Part shown: positions 1,375 to 31,505 of the stretch, in pieces
Layout: every line of letters starts with the position of its first letter
How positions within the stretch are numbered: the first letter of the stretch is position 1
DNA from: a virus
Length of the DNA: 64,000 nucleotides
Reading direction: 5' to 3' (one strand)
Virus record (IMG/VR): IMGVR_UViG_3300042397_001305
Location: 1-64,000 of that record
Notes under the pieces: model-generated
What the model was told of the DNA's origin: nothing
Database searches by the model: none
The model's input: the letters and a program-made list of their open reading frames with translations, nothing else
Made by a program: the position numbers and the translations under genes

Positions 1375-3051
1375 TTAACTTTCTTTTCTTAATGCACCGT
1401 CATAATGTTCAAATCTATTATGTTCGGTTGGTGTTAATAATAATAGACCAGGATTTATTTTTCCTTTAACAGTCTCTTGATAACAATAACTCATTAATGT
1501 TTGTTCAAAAGGATGAGCCCATTTTGTTTCTAAATAACATTTATAATTACCCTCTCTTGTAAATACAATAGGCCAATTACATAAATAAACCTCTCCGGTC
1601 ACATATGGTAAACCTTTATGTGATTTAATTTCCTTGAATTGTGTTTTAGGCGAATTAGGGTCTAATCCTTGTACAGGTAATTTAGGATTGTTTGGCCAAT
1701 GTTTTTGTCTAAAATCTTGAGGTACGTTATACCAACTCCATTGTACACTATTGTCACCAAAAAACTCACTAAAGTTTAGTTTAAGAAAATCAAAATTTTC
1801 TTTTTGAAGAATGTCTAAAGATTTTTGATATAAATTATCAACGTATCTATTAAACCCATTTCTACAAACTTCATCTTTTTTAGGATAAAAAGCCATATCA
1901 TCTTCAAACCACCAATAACAATCTAAATCAGTCTCATTAAAATGTTCGGCAACAAACACTCTACCTCCAACAATACCAATATTATCTTTTTTAATATGTT
2001 CAAAACCATATTGTTCGCATAGTTCAACATACCTTGGTGTTGTAGATAAATCTGTTGAATTATCTAATAAATATTTTTTAGGTTTATCAATGAAATCTTT
2101 ATCATATTCTAACATTGAATTGATTAAAACCTCAAATTGTTTTGGTGAATTAAATGCTATCACATAAAGTCCAACTTTAGAAGTGTCTAAATTATTAATA
2201 ACCACGTTTTTTGAAACTTCGGACTTAACCTCAACAGTTGTATTCTTTAAATCTTCAAAAAACTTACCCATTAACCCATTACCATCTATTTCAGAATAAG
2301 TAATTAATGATGGGTATTTGTATGTCATAATGGTGAATAAAGATTCTTCAGTACCCATTAACCCACTTGATAAGGTACTATCCATTAATCCATAATAGAT
2401 ATTATTAATTTCTGAAATCGTATCTTTCTTACCTCCGAAGAATCCGGCTCTCGCAACTCTATTAACCTGACCACCAGCTAATTCACATAGTTCATTATAT
2501 TTAAACCCGTGTATTTCAGAACTTGTTTCGTATGGGAAACAAACAAAGTGAAAATTTTTAACTAATTTAGGTAATTTATCTAAAACTTTATCGTGAGTAA
2601 AATATCCCGGATGTATTGTGTTTGTTAAACCAGCATCAATCCAAAACATATATTCAGAATCAAATTTATCTAAAATTTTAGCGTCGTGTAACAAAAATAC
2701 TTTTGACATAACTAAAGGATTGTACATCTCTAATTTAGCCTGAGTTGATTCTGTTAACCAACCAACTTGATTAAACCAATCAGGGTTAGTTCTTATATTT
2801 TGTATTTTATTGTAAAACTCATTATTTCTAAACCAAGATAAATCTCTACGAACAAATTGAGTATTTTCACTACGTCTATTACTTGAGACAAATTGTTCTA
2901 ATTCTTCATCTCCAAAAATTATCATATTAACATCAACTTGTAATAGCTGTGCAAATTTATCTAAATAATGTTGGAATGACCGAGACCACCCTTCTTGAAG
3001 GTCACCTCTACCTATATCCCATAATCCTGTTACTAATGTTAATTTACTCAT
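1375..3051 (-). CDS. HtrL/YibB-type protein fused to a GT-A glycosyltransferase domain
   Basis: The first ~285 residues match the HtrL/YibB (WlaTC) family by pattern: an opening TLVTGLWDIGR, a central MIIFGDEEL, then YNPLVMSKVFLLHDA and YMFWIDAGLTN, a DxG-type acidic site. From about residue 287 a second domain begins (VGLYVIAFNSPKQFEVLINS) with YWWFEDDMAF as a likely EDD metal/nucleotide site, as in GT-A glycosyltransferases. The protein is therefore a two-domain sugar transferase, probably cytoplasmic. It is last but one on the left of a minus-strand sugar operon and lies 1 base after the next gene. Start is ATG. Substrate unknown. Confidence 0.75.
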   Translation of the reverse strand: MSKLTLVTGLWDIGRGDLQEGWSRSFQHYLDKFAQLLQVDVNMIIFGDEELEQFVSSNRRSENTQFVRRDLSWFRNNEFYNKIQNIRTNPDWFNQVGWLTESTQAKLEMYNPLVMSKVFLLHDAKILDKFDSEYMFWIDAGLTNTIHPGYFTHDKVLDKLPKLVKNFHFVCFPYETSSEIHGFKYNELCELAGGQVNRVARAGFFGGKKDTISEINNIYYGLMDSTLSSGLMGTEESLFTIMTYKYPSLITYSEIDGNGLMGKFFEDLKNTTVEVKSEVSKNVVINNLDTSKVGLYVIAFNSPKQFEVLINSMLEYDKDFIDKPKKYLLDNSTDLSTTPRYVELCEQYGFEHIKKDNIGIVGGRVFVAEHFNETDLDCYWWFEDDMAFYPKKDEVCRNGFNRYVDNLYQKSLDILQKENFDFLKLNFSEFFGDNSVQWSWYNVPQDFRQKHWPNNPKLPVQGLDPNSPKTQFKEIKSHKGLPYVTGEVYLCNWPIVFTREGNYKCYLETKWAHPFEQTLMSYCYQETVKGKINPGLLLLTPTEHNRFEHYDGALRKES

Positions 3052-6210: not shown

Positions 6211-7578
6211 TTATTTATTCTCTAAATAGTAATTTAAATCTTCAGGTGTACCTAATCCCCACATTTGTTTAATATCAAATGTTTTAATTTTTTTATCTCC
6301 TAAAATAGCCTCGTTGAATACCGGACAAACATAAAATTCATTATTAACTCTTATATCTTTTTGAATCATTTGTTCCGCAAATTTTACATAGTCGGAACCT
6401 TTTTTCCAATAATAAACACCAACGGTTGCGATATCAGATATTGGATTTTTTTCCGCAACTTCTGTTACAAAACCGGACTCGTCAATTTTAGCAAAAGACC
6501 ATTTAGGGTGGGTTGACTTAAACGTTACTATACCACCATCACAATTTGTTTCATTCATTTTATACATAAACTCATTTGAATCCCATTCTACAAATTGGTC
6601 AGAATTAGCCATAACTAATGGACTATCATTATCAATAAATTCTTTGGCTAATAATGTTGTACAAGCAGCCCCTTCGGTAACTCCCTCAACTTCAACTATT
6701 TTACAATTAGGTGTTATTAGATTCAATAACGTGTCTAAATTATATTTTTCTCTATGAGATTTTTGCACAATAAAAATAAAATTAGCATCCATATTTAAAT
6801 TATCAACAACAACTTGTATCATAGGTTTACCCTTAACGTCAATTAATGGTTTTGGGAATGTATACCCTGCTTTTTCAAAACGACTACCGGCACCCGCCAT
6901 AGGTATTAAAACGTTTAATTTATTATCAGACCATTTTGGTGTACTCATAACATTTGTATTTTTTATTTTATTTATTTTATTGATTATTAGAGAATACGTA
7001 ACATCATTAGGTTCTTTAACTCTTATTATATTTGAATTACTTCTACTCGCAGCTAATAACCCATATGGAGAATCTTCAACAATTAAGGTTTCCTCAGGTA
7101 AACATTCCATCATAGAAATCCCTTTCCAATATATTTCCGGATGTGGTTTACTATTTTTTACATCTTCATTAGAAAGTATTAAATCAAAATATTGGATAAT
7201 GTCTAATTTACTTAATACCGTTAAAATTGTTTTTCTAATACTATTACTACAACAAACTATTTTATATCCATCATTTGATAATTTTTTCATACATTCAATT
7301 AATTGATTTGATGGTAATAAATTTTGTAAGGATTCTAAAGTTAATTTTTGTTTTTTATCCCATACTCTCGAAAAAGATTCTTTAGGTAAACCTTTGTTGG
7401 AATGTAATAAATCTAATTTTTGATTCGTTTTTAATCCATCATAAAGACTTAAATGTTCATTCCATTCTATTATAAATTTAGGGTCTTCTTCTCTTAAAGC
7501 ATCATTTAAACAATCATAATGTAGTTTTTTTGCTTCAACTAAAACACCATCTAAATCAAAAATTATTGTTTTAATCAT
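6211..7578 (-). CDS. HAD phosphatase fused to sugar-phosphate nucleotidyltransferase
   Basis: Residues 1-~210 are a beta-phosphoglucomutase-like HAD domain: IIFDLDGVLVEA (catalytic Asp pair), CCSNS (motif II), KPHPEIYW (Lys motif III) and VEDSPYGLLAA (motif IV). From ~224 a nucleotidyltransferase begins: LIPMAGAGSRF then FPKPLIDVKGKPMIQ, the signature GxGxR and PKPL sites. It ends MWGLGTPEDLNYYL, as in sugar-1-phosphate nucleotidyltransferases. The fusion may couple a phosphatase or mutase step with formation of an NDP-sugar for the neighbouring transferases. The stop overlaps nothing downstream; its ATG overlaps the stop of the next gene (ATGA), suggesting translational coupling. Confidence 0.85.
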   Translation of the reverse strand: MIKTIIFDLDGVLVEAKKLHYDCLNDALREEDPKFIIEWNEHLSLYDGLKTNQKLDLLHSNKGLPKESFSRVWDKKQKLTLESLQNLLPSNQLIECMKKLSNDGYKIVCCSNSIRKTILTVLSKLDIIQYFDLILSNEDVKNSKPHPEIYWKGISMMECLPEETLIVEDSPYGLLAASRSNSNIIRVKEPNDVTYSLIINKINKIKNTNVMSTPKWSDNKLNVLIPMAGAGSRFEKAGYTFPKPLIDVKGKPMIQVVVDNLNMDANFIFIVQKSHREKYNLDTLLNLITPNCKIVEVEGVTEGAACTTLLAKEFIDNDSPLVMANSDQFVEWDSNEFMYKMNETNCDGGIVTFKSTHPKWSFAKIDESGFVTEVAEKNPISDIATVGVYYWKKGSDYVKFAEQMIQKDIRVNNEFYVCPVFNEAILGDKKIKTFDIKQMWGLGTPEDLNYYLENK

Positions 7579-8718: not shown

Positions 8719-9966
8719 TTACAAATTACCTGTTATTCTATCACACCAACCTTTTGACTTACTATATGGCCAAACAACCCAGTACTTTGGTTTATGAGTA
8801 GTTTGGAACTCCCTCCATACTTTACAATATCCGTCAGGGTCTCTCATCATATTATTAATCTCATTAATGTCCGCATCTTTTCTGTAAATTGTTTCGTCTT
8901 TTTCATCGTGAAAAGCAACAACCCAATATTCATAATCTTTCTCAGGTACTTGAGTAAACCCAATATCGACACAATGTTTAAAGATACTCGCAAAACTTGC
9001 CATCCATTCTTCTTCAGTTTCGTATACTTGAGGATTAGGTGGATATTTTTTATCTAAAACATATTGTTGTACCGCTCTGTTTGAAAATTTAAGACCTGAA
9101 TATATTTCATAGTCTTTAAGTGTTCTTTCGGTACCAAATCCGTATTTACTAAAATCCATAGTAACTTCTTCACCGTCCATACCAAATAACTGACGATTTT
9201 TCTTATGAGATAATTCATTTTTCTTACCCCATTCTTTATCGTCATCCCATTGTTTGGTTCTACCCTTACGAGTATATTCGTGCCAAATCACTGTTTTGTG
9301 TGGGTGGAATAAATCATATCCGTGGGTGAATGCTCTAACGGCAATTGATATCTCTTCTCCGTGGAAATAAAACTCAGGGTCGTGTTGAACCTCAACGCTG
9401 AATTCACCAACAGTAAACGCCATATGTGCGGAGTAAAATCTTGAAGTAACCGGTTCTTTAAGGTCTTGCCATCCCGGAATAGTTTCAGGTAAAAAGAATA
9501 CCGCACCTTCAGGAATGAATCTATCAAAAGCCATTCTCCAAGGTTCTTTAACTCTACCTGCCGGGTCGTTATCCGGGTCAAATGAAGAAACATATCCGGT
9601 TAATAAAGGTTTCTTAAACCCTTTCTTTTGAAGTTGTTTAACCATTTTGATTAAGGTGTCATCCCAATCTTTTTCAAATCTCATATGAGAATCTATTTGA
9701 AGGGTATACTCCTCACCTTTATATAATTGTTGTACTTGATTTCTTGCCCAACACACACCTTTTGATTCTGTATATAGAACATCAACAACTCTAAATCGTT
9801 TATCTTTCGCATATTCAGATAAATCATCAAACCCATCCTCAGGATGATATTGACGACAAATTCCAATCACTAAATTTTTAGGTTTTTTTGCATTCTCCAA
9901 CATATTTTTAATTGTTGGGATAAGTTGGGGGTCACGATAGGCAGCTATCTGTACAAATATTTTCAT
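8719..9966 (-). CDS. GT60-type polypeptide GlcNAc-transferase-like enzyme
   Basis: The ATG at 9966 is preferred over a TTG at 9987 because MKIFVQIAAYRDPQ is the usual family start and AAGAGA precedes it. The pattern IAAYRDP, CWARNQVQQLY (72-82) and LQIDSHMRF with DSH at 92-94 is that of the Skp1/mucin-type GlcNAc transferases (Pfam GlcNAc, CAZy GT60). FYSAHMAF and FFHGEE-like FYFHGEEISIAVRAF follow, then HPHKTVIWHEY. Characterised members attach GlcNAc to hydroxyproline of Skp1 or to Thr in Thr/Pro-rich mucins. The next gene upstream encodes a Thr-Pro-repeat virion protein, a plausible acceptor. The last ~130 residues (DYEYWVVAFHD and KPKYWVVWPY) are an accessory region. Confidence 0.85.
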   Translation of the reverse strand: MKIFVQIAAYRDPQLIPTIKNMLENAKKPKNLVIGICRQYHPEDGFDDLSEYAKDKRFRVVDVLYTESKGVCWARNQVQQLYKGEEYTLQIDSHMRFEKDWDDTLIKMVKQLQKKGFKKPLLTGYVSSFDPDNDPAGRVKEPWRMAFDRFIPEGAVFFLPETIPGWQDLKEPVTSRFYSAHMAFTVGEFSVEVQHDPEFYFHGEEISIAVRAFTHGYDLFHPHKTVIWHEYTRKGRTKQWDDDKEWGKKNELSHKKNRQLFGMDGEEVTMDFSKYGFGTERTLKDYEIYSGLKFSNRAVQQYVLDKKYPPNPQVYETEEEWMASFASIFKHCVDIGFTQVPEKDYEYWVVAFHDEKDETIYRKDADINEINNMMRDPDGYCKVWREFQTTHKPKYWVVWPYSKSKGWCDRITGNL

Positions 9967-10022
9967 ATATCTCTTATTTTTAAACAAAAGATAATAATAC
10001 GAGATAAATAATAAATGGTAAA

Positions 10023-12182
10023 TTATATAAAACCTGAACCATTGAAGTACAATGGGTACTCTAAATCAGGTGGTGGTAATATTGTTGGTAATAAACAAGA
10101 TGGGTCTAACCATAATACTTTATAATATCCTGAAGGTATTGCGGCTCCCGATGTTACAAAAACGTCTTGAGAAAACAAAACACTATCAGGGACACCATTA
10201 TTAAGAATTGATGAGGTACAAGGAGCGACATATCCAATATTAACTGATATATTAATTACTGAGGGTTGGAATGGTTCATCGTTTGGTACCCATATTGTAT
10301 AAAAATATTGTATAGATGGGTTAACACTTGTTGAGTCAACCTCTATAGTATTAAAACCATAAGAATTACAATCAAAATCGTCAATAAGTCTTGAACTTTT
10401 AAGATTACCAACATTAGAAATAAAATTACCACTACCACCAGTAAATCCTGAGTAATGTATGTATATATCTAAATTATTAGAATAACCAACTGTCGAAGGT
10501 AATCCACTATTACCCCACCCTAAGAAAGTACTACCACTACTTGTCATATAAGCACTTAAATCACTTAATGAAGTTGAGTCTTGTGGTTCGGGAACAATAT
10601 ACGTATACTCTAAGTTATTATAAGGATAGGTAGGTGTTGGTGTAGGTGTTGGTGTAGGATTTGGTGACGTTGGAATATACGTTAACGTATTTCCTGTTAA
10701 ATAATTACCCCCACATAATTGAATTATTCTAAAATACCAAGTACCTGAACCATCTCCGGTATCAACAATTCTTGATGTTGAACAAGTACCTGTATCCGCT
10801 GTCCAAGTAATTGTATCTCTAGAGTATTCAATATCGACTGAGGTACAATTGTAACTTGTTGAAAATATGGTCCCATATGTTGACCCCGATAATTGCACCA
10901 CACTATTCAAAACTGGTGTAATACAACCAATTGTTTGAGTCATTGTTGGTGTTGGTGTGGGTGTTGGTACTATAGCACAGCTAGGGTCAGAAGATGCCGC
11001 ATTAATACCTGCGGTTGTTGTTTGAACTAACGTGAATGTTGGAACAGACATACTGTCCACTCTATAGACACTACCATCATATGCGTAAATATAAACATAC
11101 CCATCTTTTGACGATAAACCGTAATTTGACCCAATAGATAATGTAATATCAATATCATATTCAACAGAACCTGTTGTATAATCAAACTGTGTTAACCAAT
11201 TAATACCACCTCCAGCGCTTGATACAAATAATTTATCTGTGGTTGGTAAGTAAGCTAAATCACCACCTAAATTTCTATTAGTTCCGGGTAACGAAAATTT
11301 ATCAATAACCACTAAATTACTACCATTACCACCCGATACATTAAATTCCACAACAATAGATGATGACCCCGGGTCTAATCTTGTAGATATTAAAGTAGTA
11401 TTATCTTTCGCAACTAAACCATTTAACTCAAAAGAATAATTTAAAGTTTTATTATAAGCAGCACTAAATGGTGTTGGAATTATTGAATATTCCGTTAATT
11501 CATATGGAGGTGCAACTGATGTTGTCCAAAATCTACCATAACTATTTGCAACATCACCAATTAATAATGGGTTTGGAAATGTTAGAGGTGTTAAAGTATT
11601 TGTGTTAATATCATATTTTGAAATGGTAGTACCGGTATTAAATACGACATAGGTTGAACAGTCTACAATAACAGGTGTTGCAGATGGTGTAACTGTAGGG
11701 GTTGGGGTTGGTAATACACAAGTATTATTAACACACGGTAATCCCATAGAATATGTTACATCACCAACAATAATTGATGGTGATTTCCCACAAACATAAA
11801 GAGTTGTTCCGGAATTAATTTTAAAATTAATTTCTTGATTATCACAATCAATATAACTAAACGCACCAAGTGTTGTTCCTGTATTTGTAAAAGTTATACA
11901 ATTACAGGAAATATTTGTTGGGGTTATTGTTGGGGTTGGAGTGAATGTTGGTGTTGGTGTAGGGGTAAAACAATTGTAATTTGAAAAGGTCTCACATCCG
12001 GAAGAATCGGTAATCACCACAATTACTTCTTGCGTTCCCGATAGTTCCGTAGGAATCTCTACCGTAATTGGTGCCGACGTAACACCAGATGCGACAACAT
12101 AACAATAAGATTTAGTGATATCACAAATTGTGATATCATATGGGGAATGTCCGGTTAAAGTAGTGATTTCAATTATCTGCAT
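10023..12182 (-). CDS. Multidomain Thr-Pro-linker virion protein
   Basis: 719 residues built from globular domains joined by TPTPTPT linkers. Residues 1-75 are a short beta domain (SPYDITICD). A Cys-containing domain follows, then from ~165 to ~400 a beta-propeller-like region (repeated WxTxF, LAYLPTTDKLFVSS, DGYVYIYAYDG). Next is an EYSRDTITW / FRIIQLC domain shared with the left-edge protein, and a C-terminal domain (FLGWGNSG, IYIHYSGFTGG, FYTIWVP) shared with the protein at 31525-32403. No enzyme motif seen. Likely a tail-fibre or baseplate appendage; its linkers are the best O-glycan acceptor candidates near the GT60-like gene. Confidence 0.7.
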   Translation of the reverse strand: MQIIEITTLTGHSPYDITICDITKSYCYVVASGVTSAPITVEIPTELSGTQEVIVVITDSSGCETFSNYNCFTPTPTPTFTPTPTITPTNISCNCITFTNTGTTLGAFSYIDCDNQEINFKINSGTTLYVCGKSPSIIVGDVTYSMGLPCVNNTCVLPTPTPTVTPSATPVIVDCSTYVVFNTGTTISKYDINTNTLTPLTFPNPLLIGDVANSYGRFWTTSVAPPYELTEYSIIPTPFSAAYNKTLNYSFELNGLVAKDNTTLISTRLDPGSSSIVVEFNVSGGNGSNLVVIDKFSLPGTNRNLGGDLAYLPTTDKLFVSSAGGGINWLTQFDYTTGSVEYDIDITLSIGSNYGLSSKDGYVYIYAYDGSVYRVDSMSVPTFTLVQTTTAGINAASSDPSCAIVPTPTPTPTMTQTIGCITPVLNSVVQLSGSTYGTIFSTSYNCTSVDIEYSRDTITWTADTGTCSTSRIVDTGDGSGTWYFRIIQLCGGNYLTGNTLTYIPTSPNPTPTPTPTPTYPYNNLEYTYIVPEPQDSTSLSDLSAYMTSSGSTFLGWGNSGLPSTVGYSNNLDIYIHYSGFTGGSGNFISNVGNLKSSRLIDDFDCNSYGFNTIEVDSTSVNPSIQYFYTIWVPNDEPFQPSVINISVNIGYVAPCTSSILNNGVPDSVLFSQDVFVTSGAAIPSGYYKVLWLDPSCLLPTILPPPDLEYPLYFNGSGFI

Positions 12183-12196: not shown

Positions 12197-15100
12197 TTAC
12201 CTCATCTTTTGTAACTCTTCTAAAGTATATTCGTTAGCGTCAACATCCCAATCATAGAATGTACTATCAACGCCTTTATGTAAAACACCTCCCGGCACAC
12301 ATAACACGAAATTATTGTTTGTCATTCTTGCCGGTGATTTTGGGTTCCAAAATGATACTTCCCAATCTAATCCTGCATACCAAGAAGAATTATGTGGTTG
12401 TCCGTGTTGACTATCTAAATGAATTGGTAATAAACTTTTTAAATCACTTACTCTCATAAACATATGTCCGGCCCTTAATGAGCGTTTTTCACATAGATTA
12501 CCGAATCTAGTATTTCTCCACCCAAGTTCCTCGTGTTCTTTACTCATATACCCGCTAGCAAAAAATATGTCCGGGTTTTCATTTAAAATGTTACAATACG
12601 TGCTTAATGGTTCTAATAATAAATTATCTTGGTCAGTAAATTGAATGAAATCATAATCATCAATGTTAACGTCATCTAACATTTGAAGTAATGCGCCTCG
12701 TTGACCTAAATTAAAACTTGAGGAATAAAACGTAAATTTATCATCAATATTTTCATTAATAACTTTTGTAACTTCCCCTTTTGAATTATCATTAGTATTA
12801 TCCACAATATAGATATCATTGGTATAACCATTTTCTCTAATATCTTTAAGACAATTAATAATGTTTTTAATATGATGTGGTCGTTTATATGATGTTAATA
12901 GTGTTGCTATTTTAACTTCTTTAACTAAGTTAGGTAAGATGTTATTCTCAAAATTATTAGTAATTTTTTCCCAACAATAATTTTCATTAACATACTCGGA
13001 AATTTCTTTTAATTTTTCAGGAGTTGCAAAATCTTCATAATTTTTATATATAGTATCCATTTGAAGTGACAACATTTGAAGATTCGGTTCCCCCCAATTT
13101 CCGGTCATCCAAGGATGACCAACCACAGGGACTTCATTAGTTGGAATATTTATATATTTTCCTCTAACCAATTCAGTAGACCCTGGTTCTGATGTTGAGA
13201 TTACCGGTAAACCACAACCCATAGCTTCTAATACTGTCATACCAAATGTATCGGCTCTTGAAGGGTAAACATAGACGTGACATTCATTGTATAACTCCAA
13301 TGTTCTTTCGTGCCCAACATCGGACTTATCCCAAAATATATTTGAGTTTTCATCAACGTATTTTTGGACTTCATTACCCCCATAGAATAACATAGCGGTA
13401 TTTGATTTTAAATGTAACTCAACATTTGGATTGTCCTTATATAATTCTGTAAACGCCTTTAATAAATGAAAAATACCTTTTCTATCACTACACTCACCAA
13501 CATATAGAAATTTAAACTTATCACCCATCACTCTTGGTTTATACGTAAATTCGTTTTTTTCTATTCCGTGAGGAAATACAAATATTGGTTTGTCGACACC
13601 CATTTTAATCATTCTTTCTTTAGATAAATTGGAAGGTGTTAGGATATAATCAATTTCTTTAGATTTTTCAACAAATCGACTATAACCACCTGTAGTGTCC
13701 ACACCGGTATAAATAACTTTAGTTTTAAATTCTTTTAATTCATTTACCATATCAGGATAAGCAAACATAATACCCAAATCGTGATTAATTGGTTTTTTAA
13801 TTAATTCGTGAATTAATTCGTTTTTGGTTTCGGTAACTCCAATAATTTCTTTACAAGAAGCATCGCTAATTTGTAAATTTTCAAGAATCTTTTGAGATAG
13901 GATTCCCATAGATGCGTAATCATCATATTTTGCTAACCAAGTAAACTTTGGTTTATTAATTGTTCTAAACTCAACTTTTTTTCCTTTGGTTGTTGAAGTA
14001 ACAATGTCTTCAATAACCATTTCTTTTGTACATTCAAAAATATGAGATAGTCTAACAATATCGTCATCATATCTAATTTTTTCAAAATTATCCCCTGATT
14101 TATTCACAATAATAAAAACATCATCCTCATTTAATAATGATTTAACATCTTCATAACTTAAATTTTTTAACACAACAACTTTTTCTGTATTAATAAATTT
14201 TTCAAGTTTTAATTTATTTGTATGTTGTTGACCGGTAATTAAATTACTATCAACTAAATTAAATGATTTACCTTGAGAATGATTAATCGGAAAATTAACA
14301 AATTGGTCTTCCCAATCGTAACCGGATTTAATCTGACTATAACCTAATTCATATCCGTTAGAACTAACTCTATTTGATATATCGTTGTCATCATAATAAC
14401 CTAAACCATATCCTTCATTTAATAATCCTATTTTATTTAAAATAGATTTTTTAACAATAAAACAACAACCTAATATAAACCCATCACATAATACAGGTCC
14501 TACTAACCCATTATTTTCATTTTGACATAAATCAAGTAATTGTGTCTCCCAATTATCATATAATGACGCATCACTATTTAAACAAAGCATATATTCGTTT
14601 TTACAAAGTTTAAATGATTCATTAACAGCTTTGATAAAACCAATCGCTTTCTCAACAATAATCAATTTAATTATTGGGTTTGTTTTGGCAAATAATCTTA
14701 ATTTATCGTTTTCAGATTCTATGGTTCCATTTGAATATAAGATAACCTCATCAATATGTTTTGATGTTGATAAGGTTGTCTGAACATTAACTATTGTGTC
14801 ATCAACATTATTATATATTGGAACAACTAATGAGATGTTATTGGATAAATCTTTTTTTTTTGAGTATTCTATATAACCTATACCGGCAAACCCTCCTTTG
14901 TGATTGGCGGCATTATAAAAATATTCTAAAATATTTCCATCTAATAATTGGGGATACATAAATTCAACACTTTCATATTTTTGTTTAAGTTCTGACCATA
15001 GTGTTGAAACAAAACAATTATTCTCAGCGTGGAATTGACTATCAATAATGTCGTGAAATCCAACAATAGAATTTTCATTTAAGAATTGTTCGTACAAATC

Positions 15101-16333
15101 AAAATCTCCCTTAACACCTTCATATGTATGGTCACCATCAATAAAAAGAAAATCTACCTTTTTACCATCTAAAATTTCCCGTAATCTCTCAACTAAATAA
15201 GGGTGTTTCGAATCTCCATTAATTGCGAAAAATTGTTTGTTTGTTAAATTAGCCTGTTCTAAAGCATCTGAAATAACATAAGTTCTTTCCTCAAATCCTT
15301 GTCCTCCGTGAATACCAATTGGGTAATCAATACTAATAACAATTTCTGCTGATGGAACTTCAAACCATCTTGCCAATGTTCCTCCATTTGCGGTTCCAAT
15401 CTCAACAATAATTTTAGGTTGATGATTATTAACCGTAAGTTGTAGATTTTCAATTTCTAAAGGAATTTGCATCGAACCATTTCTTCTTCTTTTGGTTTCA
15501 GGTTTTAAATAAAGTCGGTCAAAAGTGTTTTTAAAAAATATCTCGTGTCTATAAAATTCAATAGGAAATTCAGATGAAATACTATGATAATGAATTGTTG
15601 GACACTCAGGTCTTTCAAAAATATCAACACCGGTAAACATTCTATGTTTAATTTTATTTAAGTCTGAAAATTCCGGTAAATTATATTCTGTATGTGAGAA
15701 ACTTAAAATCTTCTTTCTAATATCTTCCGGAGACATAAAAAATGATAAGTGATAACCACCATCTTCAATATGAGTACAATTAAAGGTGTAGTCTCTTAAA
15801 TCATTAAACCTTAACATATTTTTTAAAGTAAAATTATTAATAGCGACGGTTGCAAAACAATCAATTAATACTTCAGTTAACGGAGAATAATAGAATGTTT
15901 TCATTTTAAATGAAACCGCATCCATATTAAAATCTTTTGTCATACGACGAGCCTCATCAAACAATTCTTTTTTAGGGAATTCATCCACACACGAAAGAAG
16001 AATCATACAATCATCATCCGAAAATTCTAAAGTTTTTGTTCTTAAACATTCAACTTGTTGTCTTTCTAAATGCCATTTATCTTCTTTTAGTTTTTCCAAA
16101 TCATTTTCAGTTGGTTCATAAACAATATAATGAATTCTATCACTATATTCTTCAAATAAATGAGAAATAGTCGGATAAACCAATTCTTTAGGTATTCCTG
16201 TTAATGTTGTCGTGCTTTCCGAAATAACGAAGTAATCTACACAATCACCATAATAATCCAATCTCATTTTTAACATTTCCAATTCATCGTTGAATAGGAA
16301 ACAATCTACAATTTTATAATTTTTATCTGTCAT
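12197..16333 (-). CDS. Five-domain sugar enzyme: GT17, methyltransferase, GT2, GT4, GT2
   Basis: 1378 residues. Residues 1-285 are GT17-like (IVDCFLFNDELEMLKMRL, VDYFVISEST). From 290 to 490 lies a class I, CmcI-like methyltransferase (IVEIGTANGGTLARWFE, FLFIDGDHTYEGV, GFHDI). From ~495 to 700 a GT2 domain (ISLVVPIYNNVDD, CLNSDASLYDNW). From ~790 to 1125 a GT-B/GT4 domain (FLYVGECSDRKGIFHLLKAF, YPSRADTFGMTVLEAMGCG, PGSTELV). From ~1130 a second GT2 (IATLLTSYKRPHHIKNI, FTDQDNLLL). Such stacking could assemble a multi-sugar, methylated glycan on one protein, as in polymer synthases. Flanked by the GT9-like gene and a Thr-Pro virion gene. No frameshift is evident, so the fusion appears genuine. 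Confidence 0.85.
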   Translation of the reverse strand: MTDKNYKIVDCFLFNDELEMLKMRLDYYGDCVDYFVISESTTTLTGIPKELVYPTISHLFEEYSDRIHYIVYEPTENDLEKLKEDKWHLERQQVECLRTKTLEFSDDDCMILLSCVDEFPKKELFDEARRMTKDFNMDAVSFKMKTFYYSPLTEVLIDCFATVAINNFTLKNMLRFNDLRDYTFNCTHIEDGGYHLSFFMSPEDIRKKILSFSHTEYNLPEFSDLNKIKHRMFTGVDIFERPECPTIHYHSISSEFPIEFYRHEIFFKNTFDRLYLKPETKRRRNGSMQIPLEIENLQLTVNNHQPKIIVEIGTANGGTLARWFEVPSAEIVISIDYPIGIHGGQGFEERTYVISDALEQANLTNKQFFAINGDSKHPYLVERLREILDGKKVDFLFIDGDHTYEGVKGDFDLYEQFLNENSIVGFHDIIDSQFHAENNCFVSTLWSELKQKYESVEFMYPQLLDGNILEYFYNAANHKGGFAGIGYIEYSKKKDLSNNISLVVPIYNNVDDTIVNVQTTLSTSKHIDEVILYSNGTIESENDKLRLFAKTNPIIKLIIVEKAIGFIKAVNESFKLCKNEYMLCLNSDASLYDNWETQLLDLCQNENNGLVGPVLCDGFILGCCFIVKKSILNKIGLLNEGYGLGYYDDNDISNRVSSNGYELGYSQIKSGYDWEDQFVNFPINHSQGKSFNLVDSNLITGQQHTNKLKLEKFINTEKVVVLKNLSYEDVKSLLNEDDVFIIVNKSGDNFEKIRYDDDIVRLSHIFECTKEMVIEDIVTSTTKGKKVEFRTINKPKFTWLAKYDDYASMGILSQKILENLQISDASCKEIIGVTETKNELIHELIKKPINHDLGIMFAYPDMVNELKEFKTKVIYTGVDTTGGYSRFVEKSKEIDYILTPSNLSKERMIKMGVDKPIFVFPHGIEKNEFTYKPRVMGDKFKFLYVGECSDRKGIFHLLKAFTELYKDNPNVELHLKSNTAMLFYGGNEVQKYVDENSNIFWDKSDVGHERTLELYNECHVYVYPSRADTFGMTVLEAMGCGLPVISTSEPGSTELVRGKYINIPTNEVPVVGHPWMTGNWGEPNLQMLSLQMDTIYKNYEDFATPEKLKEISEYVNENYCWEKITNNFENNILPNLVKEVKIATLLTSYKRPHHIKNIINCLKDIRENGYTNDIYIVDNTNDNSKGEVTKVINENIDDKFTFYSSSFNLGQRGALLQMLDDVNIDDYDFIQFTDQDNLLLEPLSTYCNILNENPDIFFASGYMSKEHEELGWRNTRFGNLCEKRSLRAGHMFMRVSDLKSLLPIHLDSQHGQPHNSSWYAGLDWEVSFWNPKSPARMTNNNFVLCVPGGVLHKGVDSTFYDWDVDANEYTLEELQKMR

Positions 16334-16339: not shown

Positions 16340-17623
16340 TTATAATACGTTAATAATATCAGTTAATTGGATTAAGTCCATACATTCTTTTCTTTCAGGT
16401 TGTTGTAAATCCAACCACCATTTTCTAGATGAAAAATCTTTACCACAATCTTTTTCAATATATCTAACACCGGGATGTTTTGCGTGGTCATTATAAAATG
16501 GTGTTAAACAAATCCCAACCTCAGGTTTGATTGATGATGCAAAATGGTGGAAAAATGTGTCAACACTAATCCATAATGAACATTCATCTACCATTGACGC
16601 TAATTTAGGTAATGGTTGGTCCAAGAACTTTAAATCAACCATAGGAATCTGATTATCTTTAAATGACCCAACTTGGACAACATAATAACCTCTTTGTTGT
16701 AGTTCATTAACTAATTTTAACCATCTAATTTCTTTCCAATTTTTATTTGAATCAACATCCTGTATTTTTGCGGCACTACTACAAATTATTGCGATAGGTT
16801 TATCTCCGTTTTGAAGGTCATCACTTTCCCTTTTTCCATTATAAATTAAAACATCTTTATCTGTTCGTTTATAACCATACAACTCAAAAAACGCATCGAC
16901 AATAGTTTTAGAATTATTTGCGGAACCTTGTTCATATACAAATCTTCTATACCCACCAAATAACTCATCATTCCAATGGATATAACCTTTAAACTCTAAG
17001 TGTTCAAATACAACCGGATATTTACAACAAATATGAACATTTTTATGAATTTTCTCTAACAATGGTAACGACATAACGTGGTCCCCCATTCCACCATCAA
17101 GATAAAATATCTTGTCGTAAAAAATAGGGTTATCGACTTTTTTATTATATCTTATACAATCTTCACTATCATCATTAAAATCTAATCTATATTTTTTGTA
17201 TTGGGTTAATAAATCAATAATAAACCATTTAATGGATTGATATTTTGAATCCATATTCAACCCTAAAAATTGTTGTTTAGAACCATATAATGATTCGGTT
17301 ATTTTAGGGTCAAAAGTGTTTAACCTAATTGATGAACAATCCTCATCTAAGATTAATATGAATTCGGTATTACTTTTAGTTATTAATTCAACAATAGAAT
17401 CTGTTTTTGATTTTTCAGTTGGGTTAGCATTATATCTAGAAAAACCAATAATACTTTGTTTAATTTCGTTGTCATTCCAAGGAATATATCCTTTAGAATT
17501 TAAGTTAAGTGAAAAATACCCAACACCTCTAAAGTCTTCAATTACCTTTAATAGTTTTTTTAATTTATCTTGATTCTCAGTATGAATTATTACTGTTATT
17601 TTATTTCTGCTTTGTTGTCTCAT
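16340..17623 (-). CDS. GT9-like (heptosyltransferase-type) protein with N-terminal extension
   Basis: 427 residues. From ~165 on the protein resembles GT9 ADP-heptose:LPS heptosyltransferases: IFYLDGGMGDHVMSLPLLE is the conserved loop with G-G-x-G-D, followed by CCKYPVV, IAIICSSAAK, WLKLVNELQQRG, LASMVDECSLWISVDTFFHHFAS and GICLTPF. The first ~150 residues (ITVIIHTENQDKLKKL) look like a degenerate GT2 domain. The neighbours are HldE-like kinase and nucleotidyltransferase genes, so ADP-heptose or a related donor is plausible. ATG start; 5 bases from the next gene. Confidence 0.7.
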   Translation of the reverse strand: MRQQSRNKITVIIHTENQDKLKKLLKVIEDFRGVGYFSLNLNSKGYIPWNDNEIKQSIIGFSRYNANPTEKSKTDSIVELITKSNTEFILILDEDCSSIRLNTFDPKITESLYGSKQQFLGLNMDSKYQSIKWFIIDLLTQYKKYRLDFNDDSEDCIRYNKKVDNPIFYDKIFYLDGGMGDHVMSLPLLEKIHKNVHICCKYPVVFEHLEFKGYIHWNDELFGGYRRFVYEQGSANNSKTIVDAFFELYGYKRTDKDVLIYNGKRESDDLQNGDKPIAIICSSAAKIQDVDSNKNWKEIRWLKLVNELQQRGYYVVQVGSFKDNQIPMVDLKFLDQPLPKLASMVDECSLWISVDTFFHHFASSIKPEVGICLTPFYNDHAKHPGVRYIEKDCGKDFSSRKWWLDLQQPERKECMDLIQLTDIINVL

Positions 17624-17628: not shown

Positions 17629-18360
17629 TTATGGAGTTGCAACCCCCCTTTTTGATACCACAATTGAAGACATTTCATTTGCGTAGATTATTGATGTCTT
17701 AACATCTCTTGTTTGATAATATTTTAATATGAATGATGAAGTAAATGTATCACCGGCACCACTTACATCTATAGTTTCTTGGGGATTTGGACTTGGATAA
17801 ACAACACCTTGATACATAGTTCCTCTCGAACCCAATGTTATCAAAACATTATCTAAATCCGATAATTCTTTATTGTTTATTGATTCTTGTTCGTTTAACT
17901 TAACAAAGTCAAAACAATTAATAATGTCTTGTGTTAATTTTCGTTTTGAATCTAATATGGTAATTCCTCCCATCGTACAAAGTTCTTTTAAAATACTATC
18001 ATCTAAAAACCCTTTGTTATAATCACTAACAATTATGATATTAAAAAATTGATTCATATTAATATCACTAATCTCTTGAACTAAATCTTCACCTTCGTCC
18101 ACTCGAATAAACATATGGTTACTTTTCTTATCCACATATCTTGTCTTTGTAATTGGAGCGAATTGATACCAATGTGTAATATCATTATAATCAACACCCA
18201 ACGCTCTTAAATTCTCCACAACATTTCCCGACATTCCTTTATTCTCGGTGGTTTCCACCGGGATTAGGACAGGAACGGGAGCTTCCGGTGATAATCTATC
18301 AATCTTACAATAAACAAACCTGTCAATACAGGATTCACCTACGACTAAAACTTTAAACAT
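17629..18360 (-). CDS. PfkB-family kinase, HldE N-domain-like
   Basis: 243 residues. VLVVGESCIDRFVYC at the N-terminus and DVSGAGDTFTSSF near 195 (the PfkB anion-hole/catalytic Asp motif) identify a ribokinase-fold kinase. LSPEAPVPVL and the early GMSGNVVENLRALG follow the pattern of the HldE kinase domain, which makes heptose 1,7-bisphosphate. It is shorter than the usual ~310-residue domain. It overlaps by 8 bases the gene for the matching nucleotidyltransferase, so the two functions normally fused in HldE are split here. Confidence 0.8.
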   Translation of the reverse strand: MFKVLVVGESCIDRFVYCKIDRLSPEAPVPVLIPVETTENKGMSGNVVENLRALGVDYNDITHWYQFAPITKTRYVDKKSNHMFIRVDEGEDLVQEISDINMNQFFNIIIVSDYNKGFLDDSILKELCTMGGITILDSKRKLTQDIINCFDFVKLNEQESINNKELSDLDNVLITLGSRGTMYQGVVYPSPNPQETIDVSGAGDTFTSSFILKYYQTRDVKTSIIYANEMSSIVVSKRGVATP

Positions 18361-18736
18361 TCTTTAATGTGTTTGTTGTTGAATACCCCTCGATTCTGTC
18401 AAAGAATATTACCTCTTTAACCAATTCAGAACCAATGACATTCTTATCTTTATAATCCGAACCAACAATCATAACATCAGTTTCCCAATCTTTAATTTGT
18501 CGTCTTAATTCATTATCCGTTGAAAACCCAACTACGTCATAAACATAACGGATGGATTCCATTAATTTTATTCTATCTTTCCAAGTATTAACCGGACGAC
18601 CATCTCCTTTGAATTGTTTAACCCTTGAATCTGTGTCAATGCCTACTCTAACTTTACCAAACACACTCGCAAATTTTAATAACTCAATATGTCCAATATG
18701 AAGAACATCGAATGTTCCGTTTACCCAAACTCTCAT
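18353..18736 (-). CDS. Cytidylyltransferase-family enzyme, HldE C-domain-like
   Basis: ATG at 18736 chosen because it gives MRVWVNGTFDVLHIGH with the nucleotide-binding GTFDVLHIGH at 7-16 and forms an ATGA overlap with the upstream cupin; a longer reading from 18757 would add seven residues. MIVGSDYKDKNVIGSE and EGYSTTN match the RfaE/HldE adenylyltransferase domain, which converts heptose-1-phosphate to ADP-heptose. Pairs with the kinase encoded downstream. Sugar specificity is inferred from the family and the GT9-like neighbour. Confidence 0.8.
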   Translation of the reverse strand: MRVWVNGTFDVLHIGHIELLKFASVFGKVRVGIDTDSRVKQFKGDGRPVNTWKDRIKLMESIRYVYDVVGFSTDNELRRQIKDWETDVMIVGSDYKDKNVIGSELVKEVIFFDRIEGYSTTNTLKNV

Positions 18737-19119
18737 TTTTGAGAATCTCCTTTCCATACTCTATAAGAATCACTATCTGCGTGGGTTGTGGATACCTCGA
18801 AGATTACACCATCAGATAACGCCTCTAATTGGTGGGGCTGACCAGGTCTTTGTCTAACCGTATCACCAACTTTTAATATTTTCTCAATAACCTCAGCAGT
18901 TTCAGTATCAATCCATCTATAGATAAATTCACCTTTATCAACATACCAAGTTTCATCTTTAATCATATGATAGTGCATTGAAAATTTTGCACCTTTGTCA
19001 AAGCACAATAATTTACCACAATAAAGTTCATTATTCTCAATAATGATTTCTTTACCCCATCCTTTTGGGACACAACATCCCTCACATTCAATTACATTAA
19101 TTACATTAGGTTTTTCCAT
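18733..19119 (-). CDS. Cupin-fold sugar-phosphate isomerase-like protein
   Basis: 128 residues, single cupin. KFSMHYHMIKDETWYVDKGE holds the HxHx4-6E metal site, and GDTVRQRPGQPHQLEA holds the second His. This is the pattern of the C-terminal domain of mannose-6-phosphate isomerase/GDP-mannose pyrophosphorylase and related small cupins. An unusual CEGCC occurs at residues 12-16. Overlaps the HAD gene by 19 bases and the nucleotidyltransferase by 4. Probably isomerises or epimerises a sugar in the same pathway; no activity can be assigned with certainty. Confidence 0.7.
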   Translation of the reverse strand: MEKPNVINVIECEGCCVPKGWGKEIIIENNELYCGKLLCFDKGAKFSMHYHMIKDETWYVDKGEFIYRWIDTETAEVIEKILKVGDTVRQRPGQPHQLEALSDGVIFEVSTTHADSDSYRVWKGDSQK

Positions 19120-19445
19120 TCAAAGTCCTCCCACTCGTTCATTCTGATTGCTTTATCGTCAACATAAAAGTCGGCGCTTGGTTTTCCAAAATATACCTCA
19201 TCATAAGGAACATCATATTTCTTTAACCATTCAAATAATATGGGGGATTGAACTGAGATTACTTTCCCAACATTCCCTGAGTAAGTTTGCATATTTCTCG
19301 CAGTATGGAGAATTATGTAATGTCCGTCTTTTCTTAATTTTTTTAAGGTTTCGACAGCACCTTTTTTAGGTAGAACGTCTTGGTATTGTTCACCTTCTTT
19401 TTTTAATTCAGCAATTGTTCCATCAACATCAAAACAAAATCTCAT
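19101..19445 (-). CDS. Small HAD phosphatase, capsule-biosynthesis type
   Basis: The ATG at 19445 is preferred over a TTG at 19475: it starts MRFCFDVDGTIAEL, the HAD motif I. ILHTARNMQTY is motif II and KPSADFYVDDKAIRMNEW covers motifs III/IV. At 114 residues it matches the small EcbF/BcbF-type capsule phosphatases and has no cap domain. As first gene of the sugar operon with HldE-like kinase and nucleotidyltransferase, it could play the GmhB phosphatase role between them. Part of an overlapping run of four genes. Confidence 0.75.
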   Translation of the reverse strand: MRFCFDVDGTIAELKKEGEQYQDVLPKKGAVETLKKLRKDGHYIILHTARNMQTYSGNVGKVISVQSPILFEWLKKYDVPYDEVYFGKPSADFYVDDKAIRMNEWEDFEWKNLM

Positions 19446-19489
19446 ATTATTTAACTTTGTCTTAATAATAAACAATTACGAAAAAACAT

Positions 19490-19535: not shown

Positions 19536-22500
19536 CTAACAAGTCCTATCTATATGAAATGTGTAAGAATATTTTATTGTAGATGCAATTTGAGAAACCG
19601 TATTTAAACCAGCAGTAAAAAAATCAGTACAAGCAGATATAAATTCATTTTCTCCCAATGTATATGAAACCCCAAAACAAACATATCCTGCACCACCTGG
19701 ACCATCAATATATTCGTCTTGACCAATACCTAACACATCTATATTATCAAATTCACCATCCGTAACGTTATTACATCTATACAATGAGAATCCGGAACCA
19801 AAATCGTCACCTGAGCTAAAATCTGAAATCCAAGCAACACCACATAAGGTAATAACATCACCTGGGACTAAATCCATAGGTACTGGAATTAAACAATTGC
19901 TATTTTCAATAGGAATTGGGTCATTTCTTTCTTTACCAAATTGGGTTAGTACGTTAAGGTCACAAGCATCCCAACCACAGTCTTTATTACCTATATACCA
20001 TTCTGTTGAGGACTGATTTGCCCCAACTAAGAATGCTCCTGAGTGCGAAGCAATTAAGTTATACTCGTGAGTACATCCTCCACCACCTCCACCGGCAAGT
20101 CCTGAGATACCCTGTGGTCCTTGACTTCCGACAAGACCTGAAATACCACTTCTACCTGAAATTCCTGAAGTTCCGCTAGCTCCCGCAACACCATCTATAC
20201 CGTTTATCCCTGAAATACCTGAAGTTCCGTTTGAACCTGCAATACCTGAAATACCTGACGTTCCATTTGAACCCGCAGAACCTGCAATACCTGAAATACC
20301 TGACGTTCCATTTGAACCCGCAGAACCTGCAATACCTGAAATACCTGACGTTCCATTTGAACCTGCAGAACCTGCGATACCTGAAATACCTGAAGTTCCA
20401 TTCGAACCTGCTGAACCTGCGATACCTGAAATACCTGAAGTTCCATTCGAACCTGCAATACCACTAATACCACTTCTACCTGAAATACCTGAAATACCTG
20501 AAGTTCCATTCGAACCTGCTGAACCTGCTATACCTGAAATACCTGAAGTTCCATTCGAACCTGCTGAACCTGCTATACCTGAAATACCTGAAGTTCCATT
20601 CGAACCCGCAGAACCTGCGATACCTGAAATACCTGAAGTTCCATTCGAACCTGCTGAACCTGCTATACCTGAAATACCTGAAGTTCCATTCGAACCTGCA
20701 ATACCACTAATACCACTTCTACCTGATAAACCTGAAATACCTGAAGTACCGTTTGAACCTGCTATACCTGAAATACCTGAAGTTCCATTCGAACCCGCAG
20801 AACCTGCGATACCTGAAATACCTGAAGTTCCATTCGAACCCGCAGAACCTGCGATACCTGAAATACCTGAAGTTCCATTCGAACCCGCAGAACCCGCTAT
20901 ACCTGAAATACCTGAAATACCTGTTGGTCCAACAGCTCCATCTACGCCATTAACTCCGGATATCCCACTTCTACCTGAAGTTCCTGATAAACCACTTGCC
21001 CCTGAAGTTCCTGATAAACCACTAATACCTGATTGACCTGAAGTTCCTGATAAACCACTGATTCCTGATGTACCAACCAATCCTGATAATCCTGAAGTAC
21101 CACTAGCACCTGAAGTACCTGATAAACCACTAATACCTGAAGTTCCGCTAGCACCTGATAAACCACTTATACCTGAGATTCCACTTCTACCTGATAAACC
21201 ACTGATTCCTGATGTACCAACCAATCCTGATAATCCTGAAGTTCCGCTAGCACCTGAAATACCGCTAATACCAGAAGTTCCACTTAAACCACTAATACCC
21301 GAAGTTCCTGATAAACCTGAAGTTCCACTTGCACCTGAAATACCACTAATACCTGATTGACCACTAGTTCCGGATAATCCACTTAATCCTGAAATACCTG
21401 AAGTTCCAATTAATCCGCTGATACCACTTCTACCTGAAGTTCCTGATAAACCTGAAAGACCTGACTGACCTGATAAACCACTAATACCGCTTTGACCTGA
21501 AGTTCCACTTGTTCCTGATAATCCACTGATACCACTTTGACCCGAAGTTCCTGATAATCCTGAGATACCTGACGTTCCAATTAATCCGCTAATACCACTT
21601 GAACCTGACGTTCCACTTAATCCTGAAATACCCGATTGTCCGCTAGCTCCTGATAACCCTGAAGTTCCCGAAAGTCCTGATGTACCACTTAAACCACTGA
21701 TACCTGATTGTCCGCTAGTACCTGATAAACCTGAGATACCTGATGTTCCACTTGCTCCTGATAAACCTGAGATACCTGATGTTCCACTTGCTCCTGATAA
21801 TCCACTAATACCTGATTGACCTGAAGTTCCAGATAATCCTGAAATTCCGCTTTGTCCTGAGGTACCACTTGTACCTGAAAGACCCGAAGTTCCTGATAAA
21901 CCACTGATACCTGATTGACCGCTAGTCCCTGATAAACCTGAAGTTCCGCTCACCCCTGAAATACCACTAATACCTGATGTTCCAATTAATCCTGAAATAC
22001 CACTTCTACCTGATGTTCCTGATAAACCGCTGATTCCACTTTGTCCTGATGTACCTGATAAACCTGATAAACCTGAAGTTCCACTTGTACCTGAAAGACC
22101 CGAAGTTCCTGATAATCCTGAAATTCCACTTTGACCGCTAGTACCACTTAAACCACTAACACCACTTTGACCTGATGTTCCTGATAAACCTGAAGTTCCA
22201 CTAGTTCCTGAAAGACCACTTAAACCTGACTGACCTGAAGTACCTGATAATCCACTGATTCCACTTGAACCTGATGTTCCTGACAATCCTGACAATCCTG
22301 AAATACCCGATAAACCTGAAGTTCCTGATTGACCCGAAAGTCCTGATGTTCCACTTATACCTGAAACACCTGATTGGCCGCTAGTTCCTGAAAGACCTGA
22401 AGTCCCTGAGGTTCCACTTAACCCTGAAATACCACTCGTACCCGAAGTTCCCGATAATCCTGAGATTCCTGAAGTACCACTTAATCCTGAAATACCTGAT

Positions 22501-25500
22501 GTACCTGAAGTTCCTGATAAACCACTAATACCTGATTGACCTGATAATCCTGATGTTCCGCTAGTACCACTTAAACCACTAATACCACTTGAACCTGAAG
22601 TCCCTGATAATCCTGAGATACCTGATTGACCGCTAGTACCTGATAAACCTGAAGTACCACTTGTTCCTGACAATCCTGAAATTCCACTATTTCCCGATAA
22701 ACCTGAGATACCACTTCGACCACTAGTTCCTGATAATCCTGAAATACCTGATTGACCGCTAGTCCCCGATAATCCACTGATACCACTTGAACCTGATTGA
22801 CCTGAAGTTCCTGATAAACCTGAAGTTCCACTTATTCCACTGATACCTGACTGACCCGAAAGTCCTGATGTTCCACTTATACCTGAGATACCTGATTGGC
22901 CGCTAGTTCCTGATAATCCACTGATTCCACTTGAACCTGATAAACCTGATGTACCTGATGTCCCACTAGTACCACTTAATCCGCTGATTCCACTTTGACC
23001 TGAAGTCCCTGATAAACCGCTGATACCACTTTGACCACTAGTCCCTGAAAGACCTGATAACCCGCTAATACCGCTTTGTCCTGATGTTCCACTTAATCCT
23101 GAGATTCCCGATTGTCCGCTAGTTCCTGATAATCCTGATAAACCTGAAGTTCCACTTGCTCCTGAAATACCGCTAATACCTGATGTTCCAATTAATCCAC
23201 TAATACCACTTTGACCGCTTGCTCCCGATAAACCACTAATACCACTTTGACCCGAAGTTCCACTTAATCCTGAAATACCTGACTGACCTGAAGTTCCTGA
23301 TAAACCTGAAATCCCGCTAATACCTGATTGACCACTAGTCCCTGAAAGACCTGATAACCCGCTAATACCACTTTGTCCACTAGTCCCCGATAATCCTGAT
23401 GTACCACTATTTCCACTTAGACCCGATGTTCCTGATAAACCTGAAGTTCCACTTAAACCGCTGATACCTGATTGACCTGAAGTCCCTGAGGTTCCACTTA
23501 ACCCTGAAGTCCCGCTTAATCCTGAAGTCCCGCTTAATCCTGAAATACCTGATGTACCTGAAGTTCCTGATAAACCACTGATTCCACTTGAACCTGATAA
23601 ACCTGATGTCCCACTAGTACCACTCGTTCCTGAAATACCACTAATACCTGATTGACCTGATAAACCTGAAATACCGCTTTGACCTGAAGTTCCTGATAAA
23701 CCTGAGGTACCTGAAATACCGCTAATACCTGATTGACCTGAAGTACCACTAGTTCCTGATAATCCACTTATTCCGCTAGTACCACTTGTACCTGACAATC
23801 CACTTAATCCTGAAGTACCGGATGCTCCTGATAATCCACTGATTCCACTAGTCCCTGATAAACCGCTAATACCTGATTGTCCTGACGTTCCTGATAAACC
23901 ACTAATACCTGATTGACCACTAATTCCGCTCGTACCTGAAGTTCCTGATAAACCACTAGTACCACTCAATCCTGAAATACCTGATTGACCGCTAGTTCCT
24001 GATAAACCTGAAATTCCACTTGTGCCTGAAAGACCACTTATTCCACTTGAACCTGATAATCCTGATGTACCTGATGTCCCACTAGTACCACTTAATCCGC
24101 TAATACCGCTTTGACCCGAAGTACCTGATAAACCTGAAGTTCCACTTGAACCTGATAAACCACTAATACCTGATTGACCACTAGTTCCTGATAAACCTGA
24201 TGTTCCACTTAAACCGCTAATTCCACTTTGACCGCTAGTTCCTGATAATCCTGAAATACCTGATGTTCCGGATAAACCACTAATACCGCTTGTTCCTGAT
24301 GTTCCGCTTAATCCTGAGATACCTGAAGTACCACTAGTACCTGATAATCCACTTATTCCGCTGGTACCACTTGTACCTGAAAGACCACTATTTCCACTTA
24401 GACCGCTTATTCCACTTGAACCTGATAATCCTGATGTACCTGAAATACCACTTAATCCTGAAATACCTGATTGACCGCTATTTCCACTTAAACCTGAAAT
24501 ACCTGACTGACCTGAGGTTCCGCTATCTCCCGATAATCCACTAATACCGGAAGTTCCGATTAAACCTGAGATTCCCGAAGTACCCGATGTTCCACTTAAT
24601 CCTGAAATACCTGATTGACCGCTAGTTCCGGATAATCCGCTTATTCCACTTTGACCTGAATCACCTGATAATCCTGAGATACCTGACTGACCACTAGTAC
24701 CGGATGTTCCGGATAAACCTGATGTTCCACTAGCCCCTGACAATCCTGAAATACCTGATTGACCTGAAGTACCACTGTCACCACTTAACCCTGAAAGTCC
24801 TGAGATACCGGATGTTCCGCTATTCCCTGATAATCCACTAACACCACTTTGACCTGACGTTCCTGATAAACCTGAAATACCACTAGTACCGGATAACCCA
24901 CTTGAACCTGATAAACCTGACGTTCCACTATCTCCACTTAATCCACTAATACCGGATGTTCCTAAAGTACCACCTATACCACTAATACCTGATTGACCTG
25001 AAGTTCCCGATAAACCACTTAATCCGCTAATACCTGAATCTCCTGATAATCCACTTAAACCTGAAATACCACTAATACCTGAAGTCCCTGACAATCCTGA
25101 AATTCCACTGATACCTGAAAGACCACTATTACCAATTGCTCCTACCGTTGTAACAACAAATGAGTAATATGAATTACCTTCAGTATAATAAACAACTGAA
25201 TGTGACGTTGAATCATTATTACTAAGATATAACCTAGCAATCATTCTATTTGTTGGGTCAATCGTTGTTGTTGGTAAAACAAGGTCAACATTAACTTCGA
25301 CAGGTACTACGGAACTAACCCAACCAATTAATGAAATATTTGTTGATATTGTTGGCCCAATAGGTGTTCCTGCCGAATTCGCTAATTGGATTTCAACGTA
25401 AGCATCAATATCATCATTTGATGCCGGTTTTAAATAATGTAAATGAAATCTTTGTACACCTGCAGGAATTACTGCAAAACCTAATTGTGGTGTTATATAA

Positions 25501-31500: not shown

Positions 31501-31505
31501 GACAT
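19536..31505 (-). CDS. Giant collagen-like (Gly-X-Ser) fibre protein
   Basis: 3989 residues. Residues 1-~220 form an N-terminal globular domain (probable virion attachment). Gly-X-Y triplets fill about 221-358, 522-1378, 1525-1951 and 2123-3805, nearly four fifths of the protein. They are interrupted by three globular domains: ~358-520 and ~1952-2121, which are paralogous (YFFN/YYFN start, FxLHxxK centre, YSFxxTTxG end), and ~1382-1525, C1q/TNF-like ([17 protein letters not shown]). The C-terminal ~185 residues are a Cys-containing beta-rich domain. Position Y is almost always Ser, X is mostly Ile, Leu, Asp, Thr or Gln, and Pro is rare. Likely a trimeric tail or head fibre. It lies next to Thr-Pro fibre genes and ~20 sugar genes. 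Confidence 0.85.
20090..25135 (-). repeat. Longest Gly-X-Ser repeat block
   Basis: 9-base units coding Gly-X-Ser. Unit types change along the block: [13 protein letters not shown]-like through most of it and [12 protein letters not shown]-like at the 3' end of the gene. Other blocks lie at about 25650-26930, 27370-29940 and 30430-30840; the first and third of these are dominated by GDSGLSG units. Confidence 0.85.
20215..20925 (-). repeat. 45-base tandem repeats
   Basis: A 45-base unit encoding 15 residues ([15 protein letters not shown] order) is repeated many times with near-identical DNA. Shorter copies lack the GSA part. Synonymous differences (GCT/GCA, TTC/TTT) mark individual units, indicating unit-level duplication. 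Confidence 0.8.

Follow-up and report, generated by a model that had tools for sequence, protein, structure and literature searches.

What use does a large freshwater phage make of a glycosyltransferase related to those that start mucin glycosylation, encoded beside a protein rich in threonine-proline (Thr-Pro, TP) repeats? The question arises from IMG/VR virus record IMGVR_UViG_3300042397_001305, of which we analyzed 64,000 of 64,693 bases (positions 1 to 64,000, hereafter the window), a linear and probably fragmentary sequence whose Gp23-type capsid gene (61011-62888) indicates an origin in a T4-like myovirus. On the minus strand, which carries all the TP-tract, fiber and sugar-related window genes given below, positions 8719-9987 encode a glycosyltransferase of the GT60 type (PF11397), and the gene directly upstream (10023-12182) encodes a 719-residue TP-tract protein, probably a fiber protein. 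The reading we put forward, with a probability of about 0.7, is that the phage would encode a cassette for mucin-type O-glycosylation of its own TP-tract virion fiber proteins.

The family of the enzyme was computed directly. Its gene matches the Pfam family PF11397, "Glycosyltransferase (GlcNAc)", with 239.5 bits against a cut-off of 21 (E=9.8e-71), and phrog_24687 with E=4.5e-170. Translation likely starts at the ATG at 9966 (MKIFVQIAAYRDP) rather than at the TTG at 9987, because homologues begin there, which gives a protein of 415 residues. Across 37 aligned members from phages and bacteria, YRD, D92-S93-H94, E205, R211 and H229 are invariant. The three motifs by which the sequence-only reading had recognized a GT60-type enzyme all sit in conserved blocks, DSH and YRD being two of these invariant elements, and the identification itself was confirmed by the profile matches. 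The DSH motif, of the DxH type, presumably holds the metal. PF11397 is the sole Pfam match of the protein, with no ricin-type lectin domain.

An AlphaFold2 model of the enzyme (predicted local distance difference test, pLDDT, 94.5; predicted template-modeling score 0.88) was used to search the PDB by fold, and the best 40 matches were all polypeptide N-acetylgalactosamine (GalNAc)-transferases (best E=4e-11), followed by weaker matches to TarS, chondroitin polymerase and GlfT2. Template-modeling scores against the GalNAc-transferases are about 0.5, with a large root-mean-square deviation and some 11-18% identity over the aligned part, indicating that the part in common is the catalytic GT-A domain. 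The informative PDB comparison is that of fold only: a sequence-profile search of the PDB gave no match, and a weak phmmer match to T7 RNA polymerase was judged spurious. By sequence and predicted fold alike, the window enzyme is a member of GT60. It shares the PF11397 domain and the DSH motif with the CAZy GT60 enzymes, which include the Trypanosoma cruzi pp-alpha-GlcNAcT TcOGNT-2, Dictyostelium Gnt2 and the Skp1 enzyme Gnt1. TcOGNT-2 uses UDP-N-acetylglucosamine (UDP-GlcNAc) and Mn2+ and acts on the Thr-rich mucin peptide KPPTTTTTTTTKPP (PMC3769586), and the acceptor of Gnt1 is Skp1 hydroxyproline (PMC6939170); the acceptor predicted here would likewise be Thr-rich or Thr-Pro-rich. Unlike them, the window enzyme belongs to a phage and bacterial group, is outside a Golgi or cytosolic eukaryotic setting and is paired with an HtrL_YibB protein. 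The GT27 polypeptide GalNAc-transferases that initiate animal mucins provide the closest solved fold and a mucin-like counterpart to the putative acceptor, but differ in their C-terminal ricin-type lectin domain and in family, the Pfam assignment here being PF11397.

The proposed acceptors are five. Translations bear out the TPTPTPT linkers that the sequence-only reading had seen in the adjoining gene and at least four others. The 10023-12182 product has four TP runs (residues 73, 158, 406 and 509) and an AlphaFold pLDDT of 39. The others, likewise recognized by their TP runs, are the N-terminal part of a mucin-like protein that runs off the contig start (about 1-1335), a 292-residue protein (31525-32403), a 138-residue protein with 21% Thr and 17% Pro (32423-32839) and a 973-residue protein (32843-35764) with a C-terminal papain-like peptidase domain (PF00112; phrog_16701, E=1.2e-51), possibly a virion-borne protease. 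For the pattern ACNCCNACNCCNACNCC the count is 19, compared with 0.00 in dinucleotide shuffles, and the tracts are encoded by mixed synonymous codons; together these observations indicate that the tracts are kept at the protein level and are not plain DNA repeats. Long Pro-Thr-Ser-rich tracts, the criterion for mucin-like proteins, are present in the window TP proteins and their relatives. The window TP proteins matched no virion-protein family and no informative virion PHROG, and we infer their virion location. No TP run was found in the Gp23-like capsid protein of the window.

The pairing of enzyme and tract recurs across phage loci. Close relatives of the enzyme were found in 383 IMG/VR stretches; 80 loci were read, falling into 44 groups at 97% identity. 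The gene directly upstream of GT60 encodes a (TP)3 run in 32 of the 44 groups, against 6.7 expected from other genes of the same loci, and the first and second genes downstream do so in 0/44. The N-terminal domain of the 10023-12182 protein is common to 49/80 upstream proteins. By their N-termini, complete upstream proteins nevertheless sort into several families, with no similarity detected between one family and another, and TP tracts are present in at least four of these (47/47, 3/3, 2/2 and 1/4) as well as in mucin-only proteins. Tract length is extremely variable, with a maximum of 308 TP in 1776 residues. What stays beside GT60, as these unrelated families and variable lengths indicate, is the tract and not one inherited gene. 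At the phage-like locus L201 GT60 has a TP-tract protein on either side, and the one encoded two genes before it contains the virion structural domain phrog_14478 (E=1e-71). Closely similar TP-tract proteins occur in L201, binned as Planctomycetaceae TMED10, and in L232, binned as a gammaproteobacterium; judging from these sequences, the two are probably related phages that were misbinned.

Co-occurrence extends to whole genomes. Among 18 contigs of at least 40 kb selected by their capsid gene alone, TP runs are present in 8/8 GT60-positive and 4/10 GT60-negative contigs. Among cultured T4-like phages, they are present in 3/3 with GT60 (XacN1, CM1 and RAS14, with 16, 6 and 6 hits of the pattern above) and in 0/12 complete isolates without. 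Pooled, the counts are 11/11 GT60-positive against 4/22 GT60-negative T4-like records (Fisher p=7e-6, uncorrected for kinship). A tree of the enzymes separates at least two phage groups, an aquatic group beside Bacteroidota enzymes and, apart from it, XacN1 and RAS14; on this tree GT60 has entered phages at least twice, with TP tracts present both times. In XacN1, matched by position, the TP-run proteins include ORF180, 190, 232-234, 236, 237, 325, 372 and 384. Most of the adjacent hypothetical genes ORF232-237 (124048-133104) thus contain a TP run; the accessible portion of the XacN1 paper does not connect them to glycosylation (PMC5852040).

PF11397 relatives were also found in many bacterial phyla. 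Ser/Thr-Pro-rich open reading frames (ORFs) occupy 17/344 positions within three genes of bacterial GT60 genes, against 2/377 farther away (p=1.5e-4). In a Saprospiraceae locus (L182), an SP/TP-repeat protein with a Por secretion tail adjoins an enzyme 70% identical to that of the window; elsewhere the neighbors have a twin-arginine translocation (Tat)-like signal and TP repeats (L226, L229), PTTTSAPTTT repeats (L254) or, in L198, a PqqD domain together with a Ser/Thr/Pro tail. In a Burkholderiaceae locus (L184), GT60 adjoins a fimbrial adhesin. At least nine bacterial loci have GT60 and HtrL_YibB genes as a pair, and in two loci from Myxococcota (L209, L211) the two are fused into one ORF. 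Pairing and fusion suggest that both act in one pathway, and hence that HtrL_YibB, a domain of "unknown function", may have a role in glycosylation. As a separate matter, PqqD-domain proteins accompany GT60 in the Gemmatimonadota clusters L198, L200 and L246 and are fused to it in L226 (Halieaceae); L198 also holds a weak HPr-kinase-like match and an NTP_transf_5 protein, while a small protein in L226 is Tat-like and rich in Ser/Thr/Pro. On gene content, these clusters are an uncharacterized module.

In the window, GT60 is the first in a series of genes for glycosyltransferases and sugar-phosphate enzymes. This series includes a fusion of HAD phosphatase and sugar nucleotidyltransferase (6211-7578; PF13419, PF00483), proposed to serve donor synthesis, and closes with a 558-residue HtrL_YibB protein (1375-3051; PF09612, E=2.8e-17), the partner of GT60 in bacteria; next to this lies the fifth TP protein. 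Upstream of GT60 and its TP neighbor lie a 1378-residue protein with GT17-, Methyltransf_24-, GT2- and GT4-type Pfam domains (12197-16333), proposed to extend or modify the chain; a heptosyltransferase-like GT9 enzyme (16340-17623; PF01075, E=5e-7); a PfkB sugar kinase, distantly like the HldE kinase and also proposed to act in donor synthesis (17629-18360; PF00294; TIGR02198, E=1.6e-33, below its cut-off); a cytidylyl/adenylyltransferase, distantly like the HldE nucleotidyltransferase (18353-18757; PF01467; TIGR02199, E=4e-25, below cut-off); a HAD phosphatase, distantly EcbF/BcbF-like (19101-19475; TIGR01689, E=1.7e-27, below cut-off); and a collagen-like tail-fiber protein of 3989 residues, almost all repeats (19536-31505; PF01391, tail-fiber PHROGs). 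The three HldE- and EcbF-like genes (17629-19475) are divergent members of their families and adjoin GT9; this gene set suggests that the phage makes an unusual sugar nucleotide, whether heptose-like or of another kind.

From these elements we infer a peptide acceptor, a TP site, a donor, chain extension and a benefit to the phage, as follows. The product of the 8719-9966 gene would be a GT60-type polypeptide O-glycosyltransferase with a GT-A fold. In the infected cell it would transfer a first sugar, most likely N-acetylhexosamine from a UDP-sugar, with the help of a divalent metal bound at the DSH motif, and the acceptors would be Thr residues within the TP tracts of fiber proteins that the phage itself encodes, foremost the product of the directly upstream gene. 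The HtrL_YibB protein, the GT17/GT2/GT4 protein and GT9 would probably lengthen or decorate the sugar chain; a special donor would probably be the contribution of the kinase, nucleotidyltransferase and HAD genes. Mucin-like stalks would result, stiff, extended and resistant to proteases.

Several observations weigh against a fiber-glycosylation cassette. The phage loci share common ancestry, and the p-values are uncorrected for this kinship. The upstream gene encodes a fiber without TP runs in L076, L077 and L080-L082 and a collagen-like GTSG fiber in L062; the enzyme is not adjacent to a TP gene in XacN1 and RAS14; and a mucin-like neighbor is absent at most bacterial GT60 loci. Of 24 viral contigs chosen blind for their TP runs, 16 lack PF11397 in the available sequence, so TP tracts alone do not require GT60, and a strict dependence in both directions was discarded. 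Such contigs fit an explanation in which the glycosyltransferase block is a passenger in fast-evolving fiber cassettes, which often collect cargo genes, while the TP linkers provide flexibility and the enzyme has an unrelated function. We consider this unlikely: the association is specific to the position directly upstream (32/44, against 0/44 at the two downstream positions), it persists as co-occurrence where the genes lie apart in XacN1 and RAS14, and is therefore not simple linkage, and it is found again in bacteria, outside fiber cassettes. Phage proteins might instead be glycosylated mainly on a different Ser/Thr-rich element, with the collagen-like fiber as the foremost candidate and TP tracts as passive linkers. 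Both the Ser-rich 3989-residue fiber of the window cluster and the L062 arrangement would suit this, but we find it quite unlikely, as the recurrent upstream neighbors of GT60 are TP-tract genes and not collagen-like ones, and the bacterial neighbors are Ser/Thr-Pro-rich, with no collagen-like protein noted among those read.

It is very unlikely that the target of the enzyme is surface polysaccharide of the host, modified for instance to block superinfection, even though the GT9 gene, the HldE-like pair and the EcbF-like phosphatase resemble lipopolysaccharide or capsule genes: the closest solved folds are polypeptide transferases, with TarS, chondroitin polymerase and GlfT2 weaker, and characterized GT60 members act on protein (PMC3769586, PMC6939170). 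Its gene moreover has a late structural-gene location, and no membrane flippase was noticed in the cluster. Scarcely credible is the glycosylation of phage DNA, which we rejected on fold and gene context, since the T4 DNA glucosyltransferases are GT-B enzymes, whereas that of the window is GT27-like in fold and is encoded among fiber genes. In favor of DNA glycosylation, phage glycosyltransferases are often DNA-modifying, according to the accessible part of one article (PMC12619734). O-glycosylation of the phage's own fibers, as the sequence-only reading proposed, thus stands as the best-supported interpretation, on account of fold, adjacency, co-occurrence and the bacterial pairing.

The suggestion in the sequence-only reading that phage-encoded glycosylation of virion proteins is undescribed was wrong. 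Mycobacteriophage virion glycosylation has been published (Freeman et al. 2023, as cited in the accessible part of PMC12619734), and XacN1 virions contain at least two glycoproteins, for which the authors, in the portion available, suggested phage glycosyltransferases including ORF334 (PMC5852040). The general idea of phage virion glycosylation is consequently not new. Phage-associated glycans on virion proteins are predicted here as in the mycobacteriophages, where, in the same partial source, the sites are the C-termini of capsid and tail-tube proteins (PMC12619734); here they would be Thr-Pro tracts of fiber-like proteins, modified by a GT60-type enzyme. In XacN1, glycoproteins were detected and a GT60 homologue is present, but the available text does not connect the acceptors to TP tracts (PMC5852040). 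By our comparison, ORF334 is that homologue, with 48.6% identity to the window enzyme. Actinobacterial secreted proteins have Pro-Thr linkers that are mannosylated by PMT, a system that resembles ours in using Thr-Pro linkers as (here putative) glycosylation sites and differs in that PMT is a membrane enzyme, dependent on dolichol-phosphate-mannose and unrelated to GT60. Our literature search found no paper combining GT60 with phages and none linking GT60 to TP tracts, and neither the GT60/TP-tract system nor its counterpart in bacteria seems to have been described.

A broader proposal, which we hold only tentatively and judge somewhat less probable than not, is that mucin-type O-glycosylation is older and wider than its eukaryotic form: in several bacterial phyla, GT60 starters and HtrL_YibB-type partners would put a sugar coat on secreted proteins rich in Thr/Ser-Pro. 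Phages would have acquired the starter at least two times, along with "phage mucins" of their own making whose tracts reach 308 TP, and would form glycosylated fibers. The bacterial relatives suggest an unrecognized O-glycosylation route and a possible cytosolic tool for protein glycosylation. XacN1, CM1 and RAS14, as cultured GT60-positive phages, make the fiber-glycosylation reading testable. If it holds, large aquatic phages produce glycoproteins of a mucin-like kind, and the enzyme that they use is a relative of the mucin starters of parasites and animals. The joint travel of TP tracts and GT60 would then be explained and HtrL_YibB would gain a likely role, with a bearing on fiber stability, receptor binding and shielding.
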